A DNA stretch of 64,000 nucleotides from Ardenticatena maritima (GTDB lineage: Bacteria; Chloroflexota; Anaerolineae; Ardenticatenales; Ardenticatenaceae). Below the pieces are notes generated by a model. That model searched no databases. It was not told the DNA's origin and saw nothing but the letters and a program-made list of their open reading frames with translations. Positions 33,550 through 43,166 of the stretch are shown piece after piece. The first letter of the stretch is position 1; the number at the start of each line of letters is the position of its first letter. The translations under genes and the position numbers were made by a program. Location of the stretch: assembly GCF_001306175.1 (NCBI RefSeq), contig NZ_LGKN01000003.1:310001-374000 (forward strand). Direction: 5' to 3'.

Positions 33550-35514
33550 ATGACACGCTTGACGAGCCGCACAGCGTTGGGTGGCGCCTTGGCGGTGTTG
33601 GCGCTGGTCCATTGGGTGCTCATTGGACTGGCGGCGTGGGGCATGTTTCGCCAAGGCTGGTGGTTGGCGTGGCCTCTGCTGGTAGCTGCTGCGGGGCTTG
33701 CCGTGGTCGGGTGGTGGCGGTTAGCGCCACGTGAGCGGTGGACTGTGGCGGGATTGTCATTCGTAGTGCTCCTCTTTCTTCCCCCCGATACGAACATTGC
33801 TTTACATGGCGACGCCTCCATTTACGTGAATGAAGCCACCTGGATTGCACGCACAGGCGCTTTGCATGGTGTGTATGAGCCGCTGGCGCCCCTTTCCACC
33901 AGTGAGAGCGACCCCTTTTGGGTAGCCGATACCGAGCAAGCCCATCGTCGCGACCTGCGCTCGTATGATGGACTGCTCTATGGCGCCTGGTATATCCTGG
34001 ATCCGGCCACCATGCGTATCCACGTCAGCCGCCCCCCACTATGGAGTACCTGGCTGGCGTTCGTGTTCAAGTGGGGGGGCTTGCGTGCCATGTTGTTCAG
34101 CACACCGCTCTTTGCTCTTCTGGGGATATGGGCTGTGTATGCCGTCGCACGCCAGTTTGTGATGCGCTGGGCGGCAGTGGGGGGCGTCCTGTTGCTGGCG
34201 TTGAGCTTTCCGCAGGTGCATTTTGGGCGCATGGCGTATGCCGAAATTGTGGGGCAATTTTGGATGATGGCGGGCTGCGCCACGCTGTTGGTCTGGTTAC
34301 GCACGCGTGATGAGCGCTGGCTATGGCTGACCTTGTTGGCATGGACGACAACGTGGGCGGCGCGTCTCGATGCGTTGCTCTTGTTGCCCACGGTCGCGCT
34401 GGCGTTGTTTCTGGCAGGGCTTTGGCATGAGCGGGGACGCGCACCTTCGACTCTGCTTGTGCTGGTGGCGATGGTGTTCCTGCTGGGGGTGGGCACAAAT
34501 AGGGCGTATGTTGGCGCTACGTATGAACTCGTTGCGGCGCGATGGTGGTGGTTTGCATGGGCTGTGCTGGCGGCATTCTTGGGCTGTGTCGTCGCGTGGC
34601 CGGTGGGGTGGTTGTGGGGGAAACAAGTTGTTCGATGGATGGAGGCAGCTGCGCCGCTGTTTGTGTGGGGGGCCGTCGTAGCATGGTGTGGGCTTGTCGT
34701 GTGGGGAACGTTGCCCTTGGTGATTCCTGGCTGGGAAACCCCTGCGCCTTTGCAGGAAATTGTCTGGTTTACGGGATCGTACACGTCGCCCCTTTTCTTC
34801 TGGCTGGCGGGGTTAGGGTTGTTTGCGGTGGCATGTCGTGGTGTGCGCCTGCCGCAAGGGGTATTAGGGTTTTTACTCATCAGCCTGAGCGCAGTGTTCC
34901 TCACACGGTATACTTCCGCACCTGTCTACCCTGTCTCGATGCGCCGTTTGGTGAGTGATGTTCTCCCATTGATGGCGATCTTTATCGCTTGTGTATTTGA
35001 TGTTCTCTTGCAGATGCCACAACGCCGCTGGCGCTGGTTGGCTGGTGTTGTCATGTGTATAGCCATTTTGTGGGAAGGCGCCCTGAGCTGGCCACGTATG
35101 GACGTGGCGACGGGACAACAAACACCGGAAACCATTGCGCGTTTGGCAGAGAGTCTCCCCGCCGATGCCGTTATTTGGTTTGAAGCCCAGGATAACGATT
35201 CCTGGGTGGGGTGGTTGGCTGCACCACTGTATGCGTTTGATGGGCGGTGGGCGCTTCTTTTGGATAGCGACAGCCCTGATGCGCTCGCCTTGCGTCGGGC
35301 GGCTGATACCTATATCGCGTTGGGGCGTCCGTTGTACCTTGTAGCGCAAAAACCTGAACCGCCGCGTGCGCTCGTACCAGAAGGCTACACTGTCGAACAG
35401 GTTGCTCGCGATGTTTGGGCGTCCACGATGATTGGTCAACAGCGAGCCCCCTATCCGTTTCTCGTGTGGCAATTTGCTCATCCAATTTACGTGTATAGAC
35501 TCATACCGCGCTAG
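33550..35514 (+). CDS. Polytopic membrane protein, GT39-like
   Basis: A 654-residue membrane protein with about 12-13 hydrophobic segments. The first periplasmic loop has HGDASIYVNEATWIAR, with an acidic residue in the place used by GT-C enzymes, and later SRPPLWSTWLAFVFKW. A soluble tail starts near residue 520. The layout resembles dolichyl-phosphate-mannose-type (GT-C) glycosyltransferases, but similarity is weak. The start is 3 bp after the previous stop with no separate binding site, so translation is probably coupled. Confidence 0.75.
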   Translation: MTRLTSRTALGGALAVLALVHWVLIGLAAWGMFRQGWWLAWPLLVAAAGLAVVGWWRLAPRERWTVAGLSFVVLLFLPPDTNIALHGDASIYVNEATWIARTGALHGVYEPLAPLSTSESDPFWVADTEQAHRRDLRSYDGLLYGAWYILDPATMRIHVSRPPLWSTWLAFVFKWGGLRAMLFSTPLFALLGIWAVYAVARQFVMRWAAVGGVLLLALSFPQVHFGRMAYAEIVGQFWMMAGCATLLVWLRTRDERWLWLTLLAWTTTWAARLDALLLLPTVALALFLAGLWHERGRAPSTLLVLVAMVFLLGVGTNRAYVGATYELVAARWWWFAWAVLAAFLGCVVAWPVGWLWGKQVVRWMEAAAPLFVWGAVVAWCGLVVWGTLPLVIPGWETPAPLQEIVWFTGSYTSPLFFWLAGLGLFAVACRGVRLPQGVLGFLLISLSAVFLTRYTSAPVYPVSMRRLVSDVLPLMAIFIACVFDVLLQMPQRRWRWLAGVVMCIAILWEGALSWPRMDVATGQQTPETIARLAESLPADAVIWFEAQDNDSWVGWLAAPLYAFDGRWALLLDSDSPDALALRRAADTYIALGRPLYLVAQKPEPPRALVPEGYTVEQVARDVWASTMIGQQRAPYPFLVWQFAHPIYVYRLIPR

Positions 35515-35537: not shown

Positions 35538-36842
35538 ATGCGTATTGCATTTGTTGTACATAAATTCCCCCCCGAAAGTTTGGGGGGAACCGAAATCTAC
35601 ACATGGAGCCTGGCGCGGGCTTTGGCGCGTATCGGGCATGACGTCCATGTGTTCTACCCGTTTTGGGTGGAACCAGATGCCGCCGTTCCTGCCCGTCTCG
35701 AGCGGGATGGCATACACGTATGGCGTGCATTGCTTCCTCACCAGCAAGAAAACGCCGCTCGTCAATTTTGGCATACATTCCGTAATGGTGCGATTGAGCG
35801 ACAGTTCACGCAATTTTTGCAAGAAGTGCACCCCGAGATTATTCATTTTCAGCATGTGCAAGGTGTTTCAGCACGTCTGCTGGAATTGGCAAAGGCGATT
35901 CCAACACTTTTGACACTCCATGACTACTGGTTCTTTTGCCCCAATAGCCAGCTGATTCGTCCTGATGGGCAGGTGTGTGGGGGGCCACAGTGGGGGCTCA
36001 ATTGTGTAGATTGTGCAACGGTGCGCGCTGATTTGCGTGCGCTTCGTTATGCACGCCCATTAGTAGCGCTTCCTTTTGTGTATCGCAATGCCTATTTGCG
36101 TCGTCTTTTGAAATATGTGCAGGTGTTTATTGCCCCAAGCCAGTTTTTGCGGCAACAGTACATTGCGCATGGTTTTCCCGCGGAACGTATCATCCTGCTG
36201 GAAAATGGTTTGGACACATCACGGTTGCAGGAGGCCGGGGAACTGCCACCTCCCCCACGGCGTCCCCACTTTGGCTTTTTGGGGTCGCTAGCGTGGCAAA
36301 AAGGGGTCCACGTGCTGATTGAAGCGTTCAATCGTCTTCCTCCCGATGCCGCCGCACTGACGATCTACGGCAGCGACCAGGCGTTTCCCGACTATGCGGA
36401 CTCGCTTCGTAAACGCGCCCGCCATCCCCTCATTCGGTTTGCCGGCGCGATTGATTATCGGGAAACGGGGGCGGCTTTGCGGCAGATGGATTGTCTTGTT
36501 GTGCCATCACTCTGGTTTGAAAATTCGCCGCTGGTGATTCAAGAAGCCTATGCCATGAACGTACCGGTGGTTGCGTCGCGGTTGGGAGCATTAGAAGAGA
36601 AGGTGGTAGATGGCAAAACCGGGCGGCTCTTCCCACCCGGTGATGTAGATGCCCTGGCCGCTGTACTTTACGACCTTATTATGAATCCTCAGCAACTCGT
36701 GGAGATGCGCACCCACATTCCGCCGGTGGTCACGATCGAATCGCATGCCACTCTCTTGCTCGATGTGTACGAACAGTTGTGCCGAGGCGAGCCGGTCTAT
36801 CAATCTACTGTAGCGCTCCCCGCATTTACCCCCGAAACTTGA
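35538..36842 (+). CDS. Glycosyltransferase, GT4 type
   Basis: A 434-residue GT-B glycosyltransferase starting IAFVVHKFPPESLGGTEIYTWSLARALA. It has TLHDYWFFCPNSQLI with a nearby Cys-x2-Cys (CVDC) and the donor site PSLWFENSPLVIQEAYAMNVPVV. The CVDC motif after GGPQWGL recurs in a subgroup of GT4 enzymes. It is the last gene of the six-gene operon. Its 3' end overlaps the converging FHA gene by 17 bp. Confidence 0.9.
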   Translation: MRIAFVVHKFPPESLGGTEIYTWSLARALARIGHDVHVFYPFWVEPDAAVPARLERDGIHVWRALLPHQQENAARQFWHTFRNGAIERQFTQFLQEVHPEIIHFQHVQGVSARLLELAKAIPTLLTLHDYWFFCPNSQLIRPDGQVCGGPQWGLNCVDCATVRADLRALRYARPLVALPFVYRNAYLRRLLKYVQVFIAPSQFLRQQYIAHGFPAERIILLENGLDTSRLQEAGELPPPPRRPHFGFLGSLAWQKGVHVLIEAFNRLPPDAAALTIYGSDQAFPDYADSLRKRARHPLIRFAGAIDYRETGAALRQMDCLVVPSLWFENSPLVIQEAYAMNVPVVASRLGALEEKVVDGKTGRLFPPGDVDALAAVLYDLIMNPQQLVEMRTHIPPVVTIESHATLLLDVYEQLCRGEPVYQSTVALPAFTPET

Positions 36843-38213: not shown

Positions 38214-38242
38214 TTGACATAACCGCCAATTTACTTTACAAT
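38214..38242 (+). promoter_or_regulatory. Near-consensus promoter of the NTPase/NACHT-cyclase pair
   Basis: A perfect TTGACA (38214-38219), a 17-bp spacer and TACAAT (38237-38242, five of six) lie in an A+T-rich 270-bp gap, 44 bp before the NTPase ATG. This is one of the strongest sigma70-type promoters in the window. Confidence 0.8.
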
Positions 38243-38286
38243 AAAGCGCGCATGGATTTGTTGAAAAATCGAAGAGAGGGATGAGG

Positions 38287-39630
38287 ATGTCCACACCATC
38301 CACACGCCTGTACCCACGGGCGGCACGCACATTCGAAGAAGCCTACGCCAACGCCGATTACCGCCTGCCCTTGCAAGACGAGCAACTGGACGCCTTCTAT
38401 GTTGCCCGTTTTGAAAGCGGCGCACGCCTGCGTCTGTTGAAGCAAGAACTGGTATGGGGAGCAGAACGCGGTCTCACGACGAAATTCCTCATCTCCGGGC
38501 ATGTCGGGTGTGGCAAGAGCACCGAATTGAACCGCCTGGTGCGCGAGATTGAACGGGATGAAACCTTGCGCCATCGCCTCTTCGTGGTCTCCTACTCTGT
38601 CAATGAAATTCTCGATCTTCAGGATGTGGACTACACCGACATTGTCTTTTCGATTGTGGTGGGCGTGTACAACCACCTGGAAAAGCTCGATCTCAGTTTC
38701 CCGCGCGACCGCATTGACGCCGTGATTGAATGGATTCAGAAGGAAATTGAGCGCTTTACGACAACCACACTGGGCGCGGAGATTGAAGTGGGGAGCGATG
38801 TCGGGGTCTCTAAATTGCTGCGTTTCATCAATGTGCTGGGGGTCAAGGTGCGGGGCGGTGGCACGATTGGGCGTGAGGTGCGCTACAAGGTGAAAAAACG
38901 CGCCCCCGAGTTGCGCGAATTGGTCAATGAGGTGTTGCGTCAGTTGAAGGCGCTGAGTGGGATGAATGTGCTCCTGGTCATTGACGACCTGGACAAACTC
39001 CCCAAGCGCGAAGCCTTGCGTGTGTTTCGTGACGATGGCCCCTTCTTGACCTTGCTGGATTGCATGGCTATCTACACCGCGCCCGTGTCGCTCATGTATG
39101 AGCTTGGGCATAGCGTGGTCACCGAAGCTTATCACTTCTATCCGGTCCCCATGTTCCGCGTCTCTTCGCGCCAGCCGGGGGAAAACAGCCACTTGCACGA
39201 TATCGAGAAGATGAAGGAGATCGTCTATCGGCGCGTTTCCCCGGAGTTGTTTGAAGATGGCGTGGTGGACCGTTTGGTACGCCTGAGCGGTGGTGTGGTG
39301 CGCCACCTCATCAAAATGGTGCAAGATGCCTCGCTCTATTGCGCAACATTCGGACACCCGCGCATCTCTCACGAAGTTGTTGAATGGGGCGTCAATGAAT
39401 TCAAGCGCGATTTTAGCCGCCGACTTTCGCTCAAAGATTACGCCCGCTTGAAGCGTATTCATGCGATCAAAGCGTATGAGGATGGCGAAGAAGCGTGGGA
39501 GTATCTACAATCGCTGTGCGTCCTTGAATACGTGGACGCTGACTATTGGTATGATGTGCATCCCATCGTTCAACTGCTGATTGCCGAGCGAGAACCGTTC
39601 TTGAATGATTTCATGGACACGAACGGATGA
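38287..39630 (+). CDS. P-loop NTPase (AAA/STAND-like), partner of the NACHT-cyclase protein
   Basis: A 447-residue ATPase. Walker A GHVGCGKST is at residues 71-79 and Walker B LLVIDDLDKL at about 229-238. A central insertion (about 165-205) is followed by a charged helix. The C-terminal third looks helical, possibly a winged-helix/lid region. I do not see an HTH or nuclease domain. ATG 38287 is preceded by GAGAGG at good spacing. ATG 38281 is too close to it. The stop overlaps the next start by 4 bp, so it is produced together with the 1179-residue protein and probably acts with it. Function is unknown. Confidence 0.8.
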   Translation: MSTPSTRLYPRAARTFEEAYANADYRLPLQDEQLDAFYVARFESGARLRLLKQELVWGAERGLTTKFLISGHVGCGKSTELNRLVREIERDETLRHRLFVVSYSVNEILDLQDVDYTDIVFSIVVGVYNHLEKLDLSFPRDRIDAVIEWIQKEIERFTTTTLGAEIEVGSDVGVSKLLRFINVLGVKVRGGGTIGREVRYKVKKRAPELRELVNEVLRQLKALSGMNVLLVIDDLDKLPKREALRVFRDDGPFLTLLDCMAIYTAPVSLMYELGHSVVTEAYHFYPVPMFRVSSRQPGENSHLHDIEKMKEIVYRRVSPELFEDGVVDRLVRLSGGVVRHLIKMVQDASLYCATFGHPRISHEVVEWGVNEFKRDFSRRLSLKDYARLKRIHAIKAYEDGEEAWEYLQSLCVLEYVDADYWYDVHPIVQLLIAEREPFLNDFMDTNG

Positions 39631-42600
39631 AGCGCATGGCGGCTGATGACCATCTGACAACTCGCACAGCCCTGGAAGCCCAATTCGGGCATCAGATTGC
39701 GCTGTTGCTCAAGATGATTGAATTGAGCAACCTGGGCGGTATTGCGACGGTTGAGTGCAACAACTTGCAACTGCGTCGCCGTCTCTTCCGCTATTTCGAT
39801 GAGCGCCTTGCCGAACGCGGCATGTTGCTCTACCCCTTGCGCATTGACCGCCATGACTTGAACCTGGTGCGTGTGTTGCGCAATATCACCGACCAACCCG
39901 GTTTCAAAGACTTGGAATTGTTGGGGCGGTATCGCCGTATTGTTTTCTTCGTCTATGGGTTGGAAGACTACACACCACGCCAGCAAAAAAAGTTTTTGGA
40001 ATTTCTCAACCTCTTCCGCGATGCCACCACCATCATCAAAGAGCCCATCATCATCTGGGCAACCAGTGATTTCATCGCCCGCATGGCGAGCGAAGCCCCC
40101 GATTTTTGGTCATGGAAGGGCTTGCTTTTCTCGTTTGATGACGATACCCCCCTGCAATTCGACGAAGCCTTACTGCCCGCCGAACAATACCTCTACAACA
40201 TCGCACGCGACCCTTCCATTGCGGTCTGGTCGGAAGTGTATGTCCCCTTGCAACTCACGCACGTGCGTTTGAAGGAAGAACGCAACGGGAACATTGCCCG
40301 CGAAAAAGAACGCAGAGCTCCGCTGTATAGTCGCCTGCAAACGCTTGGCGAAACAACCGCTGTGAAATGGGAGCGCTTCGAGCGCCACGAAGCCCTTGCG
40401 GTACTTCGTGAGTGCCAGCGTGGGGTTGTGGTTGGCGACCCCGGCGCGGGGAAGACCACGATTTTACGCATGATGGCGCACCGTATGGCGGTTGAACAGT
40501 GGGAACGCATTCAGCAAGGTGCAATCGCGCCGCACGAGCCGCGCTTGTTGCCCATTTTTGTGCGCCTGAATGCCTTGCGCAAGGGATACACGCTTGTTGA
40601 GTTGATTACCGAACAGTTGATGCGTACCACCGGGCTGGACACATTCACCGTAGACGACGTGCAGGCGCTGCTGAAAGGAGAGCGCCTTACGTTGCCCGAT
40701 GACCCCACGCCCGTGCGATTGCTCTTGTTGCTGGATGGGCTGAACGAAGTGGAATTTGATTTGCAGCGCGATGTCCTCTCCTGGTTCTACCAACTGGGGC
40801 GTGAACACCGCTTGATTGTGAGCACGCGGAATGATTATGCCCGCTTTTTGCCCCGTTTTTTGACGATGTACCTAGTGGAGCCGCTGGGTGATGAGGAAAT
40901 CAAGGCGTTTCTGGAACGCTATGTGGGGCATCGCAATAGCGCCACCTTGTACCAGCAAATTATCGAGGATAATTCTTTGCACGACCTGGCGCGCTCGCCG
41001 TTGTTGCTCTTCATGTTGACGCAGATTGCCGATGAGGCAACCGGCTTCAAATTGCCGTCCGACCATGCCCACCTCTATCGCTTGTTTACCGAGCAGTTGC
41101 TGGCGCGCATTGAGGAAGAATGGTGGAATATTTTTGGGCGTAGTAAAGCGCGCATCAAACTGGATGTTTCGCGTGTGGCGTTGGCGCGCCTGGCCATCAC
41201 CATGCAGCGCGAACGTCGGGCGACCTTGAATGTGCGGCGTTGCTTCTGGCTCATCAAGGAAGCCGCCTATCTGCAAAGCGCCCAAGGCTCGGTGCAAGAT
41301 ATTTTTGAGGGCTTGCTGTTCAGCGGGCTGATTCGGCTCACACCCAACCGCAAGGCGGTTGAATTTATGCACCAGGCGGTACGCGAATTTTACGCCGCCT
41401 GGTATTTGGTGACATACGAGGAGCCGATTGAATTCTACCTTGATGAGAGTGGGTTGACGCACTGGCAGGGCACAGCGGCGCTCTATTTGGGATTGCACCC
41501 CGATAAAGGCATCGCTTTTCGCCAGTTGCTGGGCGAGGAAGGCGCATACCAGCGCTATTGGCTGGCGGCGCGTGCATTGGAGCATGTGGGGCTGGAATCA
41601 AAAGCGTGGCAAGAGATAGAGCAGGCGTTTCTGCATGATGAGAAATGGTTGGCGCGCTTCAAGTTGGCGTGCGGGTTGGCGATGGAATGGCGTGGGAAGT
41701 TGAGCGACGCCGTGCTCTATTTGCAGGACGCCATCGCATACGACCCCGAATTGGCTATTGCGTCTTACGAATTGGGCATTGTCTATCGGTTGCTTGGCGA
41801 TTTGGAGATGGCGGCTGTCGCGTTGCGCTCGGCGATTCGCATTGACCCCACTCTGGTTGATTCGTACAACCAGTTGGGCATTGTCTACTTCGAGATGCAA
41901 GATTACACGCGCGCCATGTATGTCTTCCAGGCGGCGATTGACCTGGAACCCGAGAACCCGCATCACTACTTCAACTTGGGGCTGGCGTACAAGATGCTGG
42001 GGCAGTACGATGAAGCGTGGGCGATGTTTGAAGAAGTCCTGCGTCGCGATTCCGGGTATCGTGAAGCGCGTGAACAACAACAGTTGATTGCCCTGGCTCG
42101 CAACTTTGACCGAATCGCTTTTCTGGAACGCATCTTGCTCTTCCGTTCCCTTTCATTGGAGCACCTTGTCCTGTTGAGCCACTCGCTGGAAGAACGCACC
42201 TATGCACCTGGGGAGATGATCGTCTGGCAGGGTGAAGAAGGCGATCACCTTTTCATCATCGAATCCGGCGAAGTGGAAGTGATCGCGCGTGACGCCGAGA
42301 CGGGCGCTTTGCGGGTGCTCAACCGCTTGGGCACAGGGGATTACTTCGGCGAAATTGCCTTGCTGGAAGAGGGCGCGCGTCGCACGGCGTCGGTGCGTGC
42401 TGTGACGCCGGTGCGTGTGCTGGCGTTGCATCGCACAGATTTCATGCGCATCAAGGAAGAATCGCCTGACGTGGTCAGTATGCTTGTGCAGACACGCAAT
42501 GACCGCTTGGAAGCCGATGTGCGCCACACGTTGGAAGAAAATATCCAGCGTTTTCGTGAGTGGCGGCGTCAGGCGAGTGAGCATATTCAGCAATACAAGC

Positions 42601-43166
42601 AGGGCGAGCATCAGATGACGGTGTTGGCGGCGGATATTCGCAATTCTACGCCGCTGACGCAACAATTTGGCGCCACACGTTGGCTGCGGTTCTTGAAAGA
42701 TTTTTATAGCGACATGATCGAAGTGGTGGGGAATCGTGGCATCATCTATCAGTATGTGGGCGACCAGATTGTTGCTTTGTTTGAAAAACCGTTAGATGCG
42801 GTTGCGTGTGCGGTGGATATGCAAACCACCTACATGCGTTTGTTGCACCAGTGGGAAATGCGCCTGGAAACACCTCTGGAAAGTGGGTTGGGGGTTGGTA
42901 TTGCCACCGGCACAATTGCGATTGAGGATACGGACTTTGATGCGGTGTTGGCGGGTACGCCCGTTGTGCTGGCAACGCGGTTGAGCGCACGCAGTAAAGA
43001 GCGTAATGCAGTGTATCTCGATGAAACAACGTTCAAAGCCATTTTGGGAAGCCCTTACTGGGCGGAGATGTTGGAGCATCCCATCTTGCTGAAAGGGTTT
43101 CATGAACCGGTGCGTGTCTATCGGCTGGCGCGTGTTGCGGGGCAGCCAACTGAAAGTGTTGTGTGA
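39627..43166 (+). CDS. NACHT-type STAND NTPase - TPR - cyclic-nucleotide-binding - class III cyclase fusion protein
   Basis: An 1179-residue multidomain protein. Residues 1-200 resemble a degenerate NTPase-like domain (RRIVFFVYGLEDYT, DFWSWKGLLFSF) without Walker A. Residues about 255-600 form a NACHT NTPase with GDPGAGKTT (270-278), LLLLLDGLNE (365-374) and the closing MHQAVREFYAAWYL. TPRs follow at about 690-815. A cyclic-nucleotide-binding domain (about 840-960) keeps the phosphate cassette GDYFGEIALLEEGARRTASV. The C-terminal class III cyclase domain (about 995-1165) has both metal Asp motifs (AADIRNST, YVGDQIVALF). The base-selecting Lys is Gln, and the usual VNxAxR motif reads VVLATR, so Asn is Val. 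It starts inside the NTPase gene stop. A signalling or NLR-like defence role is inference. Confidence 0.85.
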   Translation: MKRMAADDHLTTRTALEAQFGHQIALLLKMIELSNLGGIATVECNNLQLRRRLFRYFDERLAERGMLLYPLRIDRHDLNLVRVLRNITDQPGFKDLELLGRYRRIVFFVYGLEDYTPRQQKKFLEFLNLFRDATTIIKEPIIIWATSDFIARMASEAPDFWSWKGLLFSFDDDTPLQFDEALLPAEQYLYNIARDPSIAVWSEVYVPLQLTHVRLKEERNGNIAREKERRAPLYSRLQTLGETTAVKWERFERHEALAVLRECQRGVVVGDPGAGKTTILRMMAHRMAVEQWERIQQGAIAPHEPRLLPIFVRLNALRKGYTLVELITEQLMRTTGLDTFTVDDVQALLKGERLTLPDDPTPVRLLLLLDGLNEVEFDLQRDVLSWFYQLGREHRLIVSTRNDYARFLPRFLTMYLVEPLGDEEIKAFLERYVGHRNSATLYQQIIEDNSLHDLARSPLLLFMLTQIADEATGFKLPSDHAHLYRLFTEQLLARIEEEWWNIFGRSKARIKLDVSRVALARLAITMQRERRATLNVRRCFWLIKEAAYLQSAQGSVQDIFEGLLFSGLIRLTPNRKAVEFMHQAVREFYAAWYLVTYEEPIEFYLDESGLTHWQGTAALYLGLHPDKGIAFRQLLGEEGAYQRYWLAARALEHVGLESKAWQEIEQAFLHDEKWLARFKLACGLAMEWRGKLSDAVLYLQDAIAYDPELAIASYELGIVYRLLGDLEMAAVALRSAIRIDPTLVDSYNQLGIVYFEMQDYTRAMYVFQAAIDLEPENPHHYFNLGLAYKMLGQYDEAWAMFEEVLRRDSGYREAREQQQLIALARNFDRIAFLERILLFRSLSLEHLVLLSHSLEERTYAPGEMIVWQGEEGDHLFIIESGEVEVIARDAETGALRVLNRLGTGDYFGEIALLEEGARRTASVRAVTPVRVLALHRTDFMRIKEESPDVVSMLVQTRNDRLEADVRHTLEENIQRFREWRRQASEHIQQYKQGEHQMTVLAADIRNSTPLTQQFGATRWLRFLKDFYSDMIEVVGNRGIIYQYVGDQIVALFEKPLDAVACAVDMQTTYMRLLHQWEMRLETPLESGLGVGIATGTIAIEDTDFDAVLAGTPVVLATRLSARSKERNAVYLDETTFKAILGSPYWAEMLEHPILLKGFHEPVRVYRLARVAGQPTESVV

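Follow-up and report, generated by a model that had tools for sequence, protein, structure and literature searches.

The window, the 64,000-nucleotide stretch of DNA analysed here, covers positions 310,001-374,000 of contig NZ_LGKN01000003.1 in the 3.56 Mb genome of Ardenticatena maritima (GCF_001306175.1). Two adjacent genes, here called A and B, carry the features given below with their positions in the window.

38214..38242, forward strand: promoter-like site before gene A, TTGACA-N17-TACAAT, matching the consensus at 11/12 positions
38281..39630, forward strand: gene A, a predicted active AAA+/STAND-type ATPase of 449 residues (Pfam AAA_22, AAA_16, and KAP; alignment of 19 homologues)
39627..43166, forward strand: gene B, a multidomain receptor/cyclase of 1179 residues that starts inside the stop of gene A (open reading frame and Pfam)
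39684..40256, forward strand: B residues 20-210, a putative inactive AAA+ domain of the ORC/Cdc6/STAND clade, with no P-loop (alignments, AlphaFold, Foldseek)
40425..40928, forward strand: B residues 267-434, NACHT domain with GDPGAGKTT and LLLLLDGLNE (Pfam, E 1.6e-7)
41697..42086, forward strand: B residues 691-820 (about 690-820), TPR repeats (Pfam TPR_11, the best TPR family, E 2.6e-21)
42174..42506, forward strand: B residues 850-960, CNB domain with the intact phosphate-binding cassette F907-GEIALLEEGAR-R919-TA (Pfam, fold)
42468..42590, forward strand: B residues 948-988, a continuous 41-residue helix running from CNB to cyclase and overlapping the CNB C-helix (AlphaFold secondary structure)
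42591..43136, forward strand: B residues 989-1170, class III nucleotidyl cyclase (Pfam, PDB sequence matches, Foldseek, alignment)

Genes A and B are the two open reading frames described in an earlier note on this DNA, and only the start of A differs: the note placed it at 38287, an in-frame ATG 2 codons downstream of 38281 that is better spaced from a Shine-Dalgarno-like GAGGG run. The 4-bp overlap that it reported is indeed there, as the sequence ATGA at 39627-39630. Its near-consensus promoter also stands as a motif, a call made on the consensus match only, and a congeneric genome (G001, locus L062) retains the core of the site as TGGACA-17-TACAAT. Yet such sites are no commoner across the region than in shuffled sequence, with 3 found and 2.9 expected. 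FHA and P450 genes neighbour the pair in the window, the two FHA genes lying on the opposite strand. Also in the window, an open reading frame of 654 residues at 33550-35511 adjoins glycosyltransferase and methyltransferase genes, gives no Pfam or NCBIfam match, and is 74% identical in the congener.

Gene A is present in a single copy in the genome. Its product, which weakly matches DAP3, contains the Walker A motif GHVGCGKST and the Walker B motif VLLVIDDLDK, and both motifs are retained in all nine orthologues tabulated. In the distant relatives L073:324-1607, L075:1349-2596, and L076:1-1296, the P-loop Lys has been lost from gene A itself (GxGETT), and the pair at these loci may have no active AAA+ member.

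The note listed the domains of B as NACHT, TPR, CNB, and cyclase. All four are present, but the N-terminal stretch of about 200 residues that precedes them was overlooked. Although residues 20-210 have no Pfam match, they are 93% identical between congeners, which places them among the most conserved parts of B. N128 and D159 are among the invariant residues in the alignments, and R131 and W144 are nearly invariant. The AlphaFold model of the domain has an alpha/beta AAA+ fold, the core of which has pLDDT values of about 76-95 in ten-residue blocks, mostly >85. Its top Foldseek matches are origin recognition complex subunits and archaeal ORC2 (E 1.8e-4 to 6e-4), a likeness at the level of the fold only, with a low TM of about 0.4 (0.43). 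The P-loop is absent from the domain in all 10 of the orthologues, and a profile comparison with A aligns the Walker B strand alone, which is a marginal, weak match. Each protein also has an invariant or near-invariant Arg that is a candidate arginine finger, R318 in A and R131 in B; in the nSTAND2 systems discussed below, both members keep such a finger. The most fitting interpretation of this part of B is a STAND-like AAA+ domain without activity.

The remaining domains of B are more readily recognised. The NACHT domain has both Walker motifs in addition to its Pfam match; these motifs, including a Walker B of the DGLxE type, are retained in 10/10 orthologues. The TPR repeats are likely a sensor or scaffold. 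Pfam, together with the folds found by AlphaFold and Foldseek, bears out the note's CNB and cyclase domains. The cNMP_binding family covers residues 857-944 (E 2.8e-22), the modelled fold matches the CNBs of PKA RI-alpha and PKG, and the domain probably binds a cyclic nucleotide. The Guanylate_cyc family matches residues 990-1100 with an E value of 1.2e-4, just over the cut-off, and the cyclase model matches solved class III cyclases (CyaB 3r5g, E 3.3e-13, TMt 0.80). When aligned with seven other cyclase domains encoded in this genome, the cyclase of B is seen to retain the metal ligands D1003 and D1046 and the Arg R1118. The purine-specifying Lys is replaced by Q1042, the second purine position (Asp/Thr) by a hydrophobic residue, and the transition-state Asn by V1114 (Ile in relatives). 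The absence of the purine Lys and of the Asn places both activity and product in doubt; the domain probably makes a cyclic-nucleotide signal.

A profile of gene A was used to assemble 37 loci, and at 28 of these the inactive AAA+ domain is present in the next gene on the same strand (E <0.1 in a small database), the two reading frames mostly overlapping or nearly so. Among the other 9 loci, one lies at a contig edge, one holds a frame-broken copy, and two, from cyanobacteria, give marginal matches. Different modules come after the inactive AAA+ domain: TPRs only; NACHT; NACHT-TPR-CNB-cyclase; CNB-NACHT-TPR-CNB-cyclase; or, on cyanobacterial plasmids, nSTAND1 and WD40. The gene pair is thus A and an inactive AAA+ domain, followed by variable modules, and the inactive AAA+ domain is the hallmark that the partner genes of A have in common.

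Ten orthologous loci represent the NACHT-TPR version, and in all ten A and B are adjacent and on the same strand. The trees of A and B have the same topology, and their identity matrices are correlated at 0.84. A gene neighbourhood is shared only by the congeners G000 and G001 and by G002 and G005, and is unrelated at the other orthologous loci; since it is conserved within a genus only, the pair moves as a unit. These results uphold the two-gene unit proposed in the note, which had also considered that the large protein might always occur without the NTPase gene: a B homologue without A is found at 0 of the 10 orthologous loci. The pair is conserved in Chloroflexota with a patchy distribution, A being present in 23 of 100 relatives and in 12 of 301 genomes of the phylum. 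Between the congeners, A is 96% identical with a dN/dS of ~0.017 (versus G001), and purifying selection acts on all domains that allowed a dN/dS estimate. Ten orthologous pairs and purifying selection argue for more than a chance arrangement. A scan of named genomes with B, a single-protein query that reaches close relatives only, gave as its sole match the congener, an Ardenticatena MAG (Chloroflexota).

The ten orthologues also reveal how the C-terminal half of B is used. In six of them, the CNB cassette (FGE...RT) and both metal Asp residues of the cyclase are intact; the other four have lost both the cassette and the metal ligands but still have A, the inactive domain, NACHT, and TPR. In one of the four, L064, the cassette Arg has become His and the metal Asp residues Cys and Glu. 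The other three are the loci of genus g2: they lack the cyclase domain, and their cassettes are without the Arg and, in two cases, also without the Glu. Fitch parsimony gives two changes for each trait, that is, two independent losses, and the association between the traits has a Fisher p of 0.005, uncorrected for phylogeny. CNB and cyclase are therefore one coupled, dispensable accessory module that is kept or lost together, and the core of A, inactive AAA+ domain, NACHT, and TPR persists without it. The note's view of a cNMP sensor coupled to a synthase in one chain is thereby strengthened. One revision is called for: the cyclase cannot be the essential output, because 4/10 orthologous pairs live with a cyclase that is absent or broken. 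In two other Chloroflexota lineages, relatives of B (L069:3365-7495 and L101:5645-9625) have two canonical CNBs, of which one directly precedes NACHT and the other precedes the cyclase; the Lys and the Asn are retained in their cyclases.

The joint retention and loss suggest a detachable, self-sensing signalling module, in which the CNB would sense the product of its own cyclase. Co-loss demonstrates coupling rather than binding of that product by the CNB: eight further class III cyclase family matches are encoded in the genome, and their products could feed the CNB. A CNB that takes its cNMP from another class III cyclase, and regulates only the cyclase attached to it, accounts for the co-loss equally well.

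A further step along this line is to regard the cyclase in the window as a pseudoenzyme that binds nucleotide or dimerises, with the CNB reading the cNMP of other cyclases. The Gln in place of the active-site Lys and the Val or Ile in place of the Asn fit this, as do the three relatives without a cyclase, the fourth without both metal Asp residues, and the eight other cyclase matches in the genome. However, both metal Asp residues are kept wherever the CNB cassette is kept and are lost with it, the cyclase has a dN/dS of ~0.07 between the two congeners (a rough value, as dS is near 1), and the cyclases of L069 and L101 keep both Lys and Asn. Moreover, the missing Asn is no bar to activity, because mycobacterial Rv1900c is reported to be active with a His at this position, and a mycobacterial set of cyclases has Ile there (PMC4886424). 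We regard a pseudoenzyme as rather unlikely. Far less probable is a one-chain Pycsar-type system, that is, a pyrimidine cyclase joined to its own cNMP receptor. In PADLOC, the cyclase is indeed hit by PycC models (E 1.4e-12) and the CNB by a PycTIR model. Yet of five further class III cyclases scanned in the genome, four reach 45 to 81 bits on PycC versus 45.5 here (the fifth, 33 bits), so the match is not evidence for a pyrimidine product, and assignment to Pycsar by way of PADLOC was dropped. In addition, no TM or TIR effector is attached to the pair or adjacent to it, and neither A nor B contains a TIR domain. The residue sets that specify pyrimidine vary between the PycC clades, and none of these published sets can be assigned to the cyclase of B (PMC11224242).

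The reading that we favour with moderate confidence as the best explanation of the whole is a two-part STAND/AAA+ switch, made up of A and B, to which the CNB-cyclase module is an accessory. It starts from the anatomy, the pairing, and the co-loss, which are observed, and its further steps are argued by analogy with the behaviour of STAND proteins and class III cyclases. A would be the active ATPase half and the N-terminal domain of B its inactive AAA+ partner, and because of this the two proteins would most likely assemble through AAA+ interfaces. The NACHT domain would provide another, ATP-dependent switch that is probably set off when the TPR region senses a ligand. Upon switching, B would oligomerise and bring its C-terminal cyclases together. 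Class III cyclases function as head-to-tail dimers, and so oligomerisation would start the synthesis of a cyclic mononucleotide. The CNB, tied to the cyclase by the long helix, would then feed back on the enzyme upon binding a cyclic nucleotide, in the simplest case the product of that enzyme. In two relatives the second CNB lies directly before NACHT, an arrangement that would fit direct action of the messenger on the switch.

Such an arrangement might amount to an NLR-like receptor whose cyclic mononucleotide output gates its own switch, with synthase, sensor, and NACHT in one chain, a partner ATPase, and built-in positive or negative feedback; this fuller proposal is tentative, and we lean against it at present. 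If true, a bacterial NLR-like protein would contain a second-messenger loop of its own, intermediate between NACHT receptors and cyclic-nucleotide immunity, and the relatives with and without the loop would be natural controls for the effect of feedback on the receptor switch.

The function that the switch serves is a separate question. The antiviral role suggested in the note is plausible, and the chance of a conflict or defence role for the pair is somewhat better than even; an accessory system of a conflict or stress type is likely. Patchiness, relocation as a unit, and kinship to predicted conflict systems count for defence, while the type of neighbours, the extreme conservation of A, and the failure to find phage-borne copies count against it. 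The defence-island location that the note had in mind is not borne out: PADLOC and Pfam scans of 79 neighbours at nine orthologous loci turn up genes of a housekeeping type, with nothing but generic matches from PADLOC. Searches of IMG/VR yield no relatives of gene A, those of phage records only matches to catabolite-activator CNBs, and those of plasmids no match to B residues 1-690. The evolution of A is also very slow for an arms-race gene. These neighbours and this slow evolution, with the single copy of A, an ordinary sigma-70-like promoter, and a cNMP-rich genome, would suit a regulator of housekeeping or stress functions, a hub for cNMP signalling that is gated by ATP, like the STAND-cyclase-TPR regulators, and has no part in conflict. 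Against such a hub are the patchy occurrence across class and phylum, the lack of a conserved neighbourhood beyond the genus, and the swapping of C-terminal modules (nSTAND1 and WD40 in the cyanobacterial plasmid relatives), as occurs in predicted conflict systems. It is a possibility to be taken seriously, though not one we would expect to prevail.

Genome G000 encodes three proteins that join a CNB to a patatin-like phospholipase (L120, L122, and L124), two of them close together. CNB-patatin homologues are present in all 12 genomes tested, with the lipase part only in G080, G014, and G049. As effectors acting in trans and tied to the module they were rejected, since they are present with an intact cyclase and without a cyclase alike and hence have no association with it. 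They are candidate targets of cNMP that are not specific to the pair.

The pair resembles several known systems in part. With the antiphage NACHT proteins (the bNACHT group and EruA) it has the NACHT switch in common, and the NCBIfam EruA model matches B residues 400-595 with an E value of 1e-12, far below the EruA cut-off; unlike those proteins, B is partnered by an ATPase encoded upstream and contains a CNB and a cyclase, and the pair is without a nuclease, protease, or membrane effector. Pycsar (PycC plus a CNB effector) likewise combines a class III cyclase fold with a CNB fold, but here the cyclase and receptor are in one chain under a STAND switch, and there is no effector. In mammalian soluble adenylyl cyclase and the mycobacterial Rv0386-like proteins, a single chain holds TPRs and a STAND ATPase together with a class III cyclase, which is N-terminal. 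Such fusions are not known to have a CNB, an inactive AAA+ domain, or an obligate ATPase partner gene. The literature that we searched holds no account of an inactive AAA+-NACHT-TPR-CNB-cyclase chain with a partner ATPase.

In its described features the pair matches, and may belong to, nSTAND2, a predicted two-gene counter-invader system whose effectors are mainly of the GT4 or HEPN type (Kaur et al. 2021, eLife 10:e70394, PMC8195603, Fig. 6C); no model named nSTAND2 is among the Pfam matches of the pair. Like nSTAND2, it is a mobile two-gene operon of adjacent genes, each with a STAND/AAA+ core, of which one encodes an active STAND-type ATPase and the other joins variable modules to a core whose NTP-binding motifs are eroded. 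The DAP3 match of A and the ORC-like fold of B also correspond to clades named as related in that work (PMC8195603). The difference lies in these modules, which are TPR, NACHT, WD40, or CNB-cyclase here; the GT4 and HEPN effectors there are the most common but are not obligatory, and neither was seen on the inactive member in the partners scanned with Pfam. A GT4 glycosyltransferase encoded at 35538-36839 was considered as an effector of the nSTAND2 type and set aside, since it is a gene of its own on the far side of the two FHA genes of the opposite strand and does not accompany the pair outside the genus. If the likeness holds, predicted systems with an active/inactive STAND pair would gain a new detachable signalling module, as well as a hallmark domain with which more of them can be found.

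The MoxR-vWA ternary systems with VMAP or iSTAND also have inactive STAND modules and cNMP cyclases among their parts (Kaur et al. 2020, eLife 9:e52696, PMC7159879), but no MoxR, vWA, or VMAP gene was recognised beside the pair in the window. An A homologue that does adjoin MoxR and VMAP genes is found on plasmid p057_J of Nostoc sp. C057 (L098:2051-7221), within a protein annotated as SAV_2336-related; it ties the gene A family to conflict systems of the vWA-MoxR type. On a Calothrix plasmid (L099:5824-13101), two A-like ATPases lie in tandem, the second with a TIR domain, and are followed by an nSTAND1 protein, annotated as WD-40, that has two matches to the inactive AAA+ domain.
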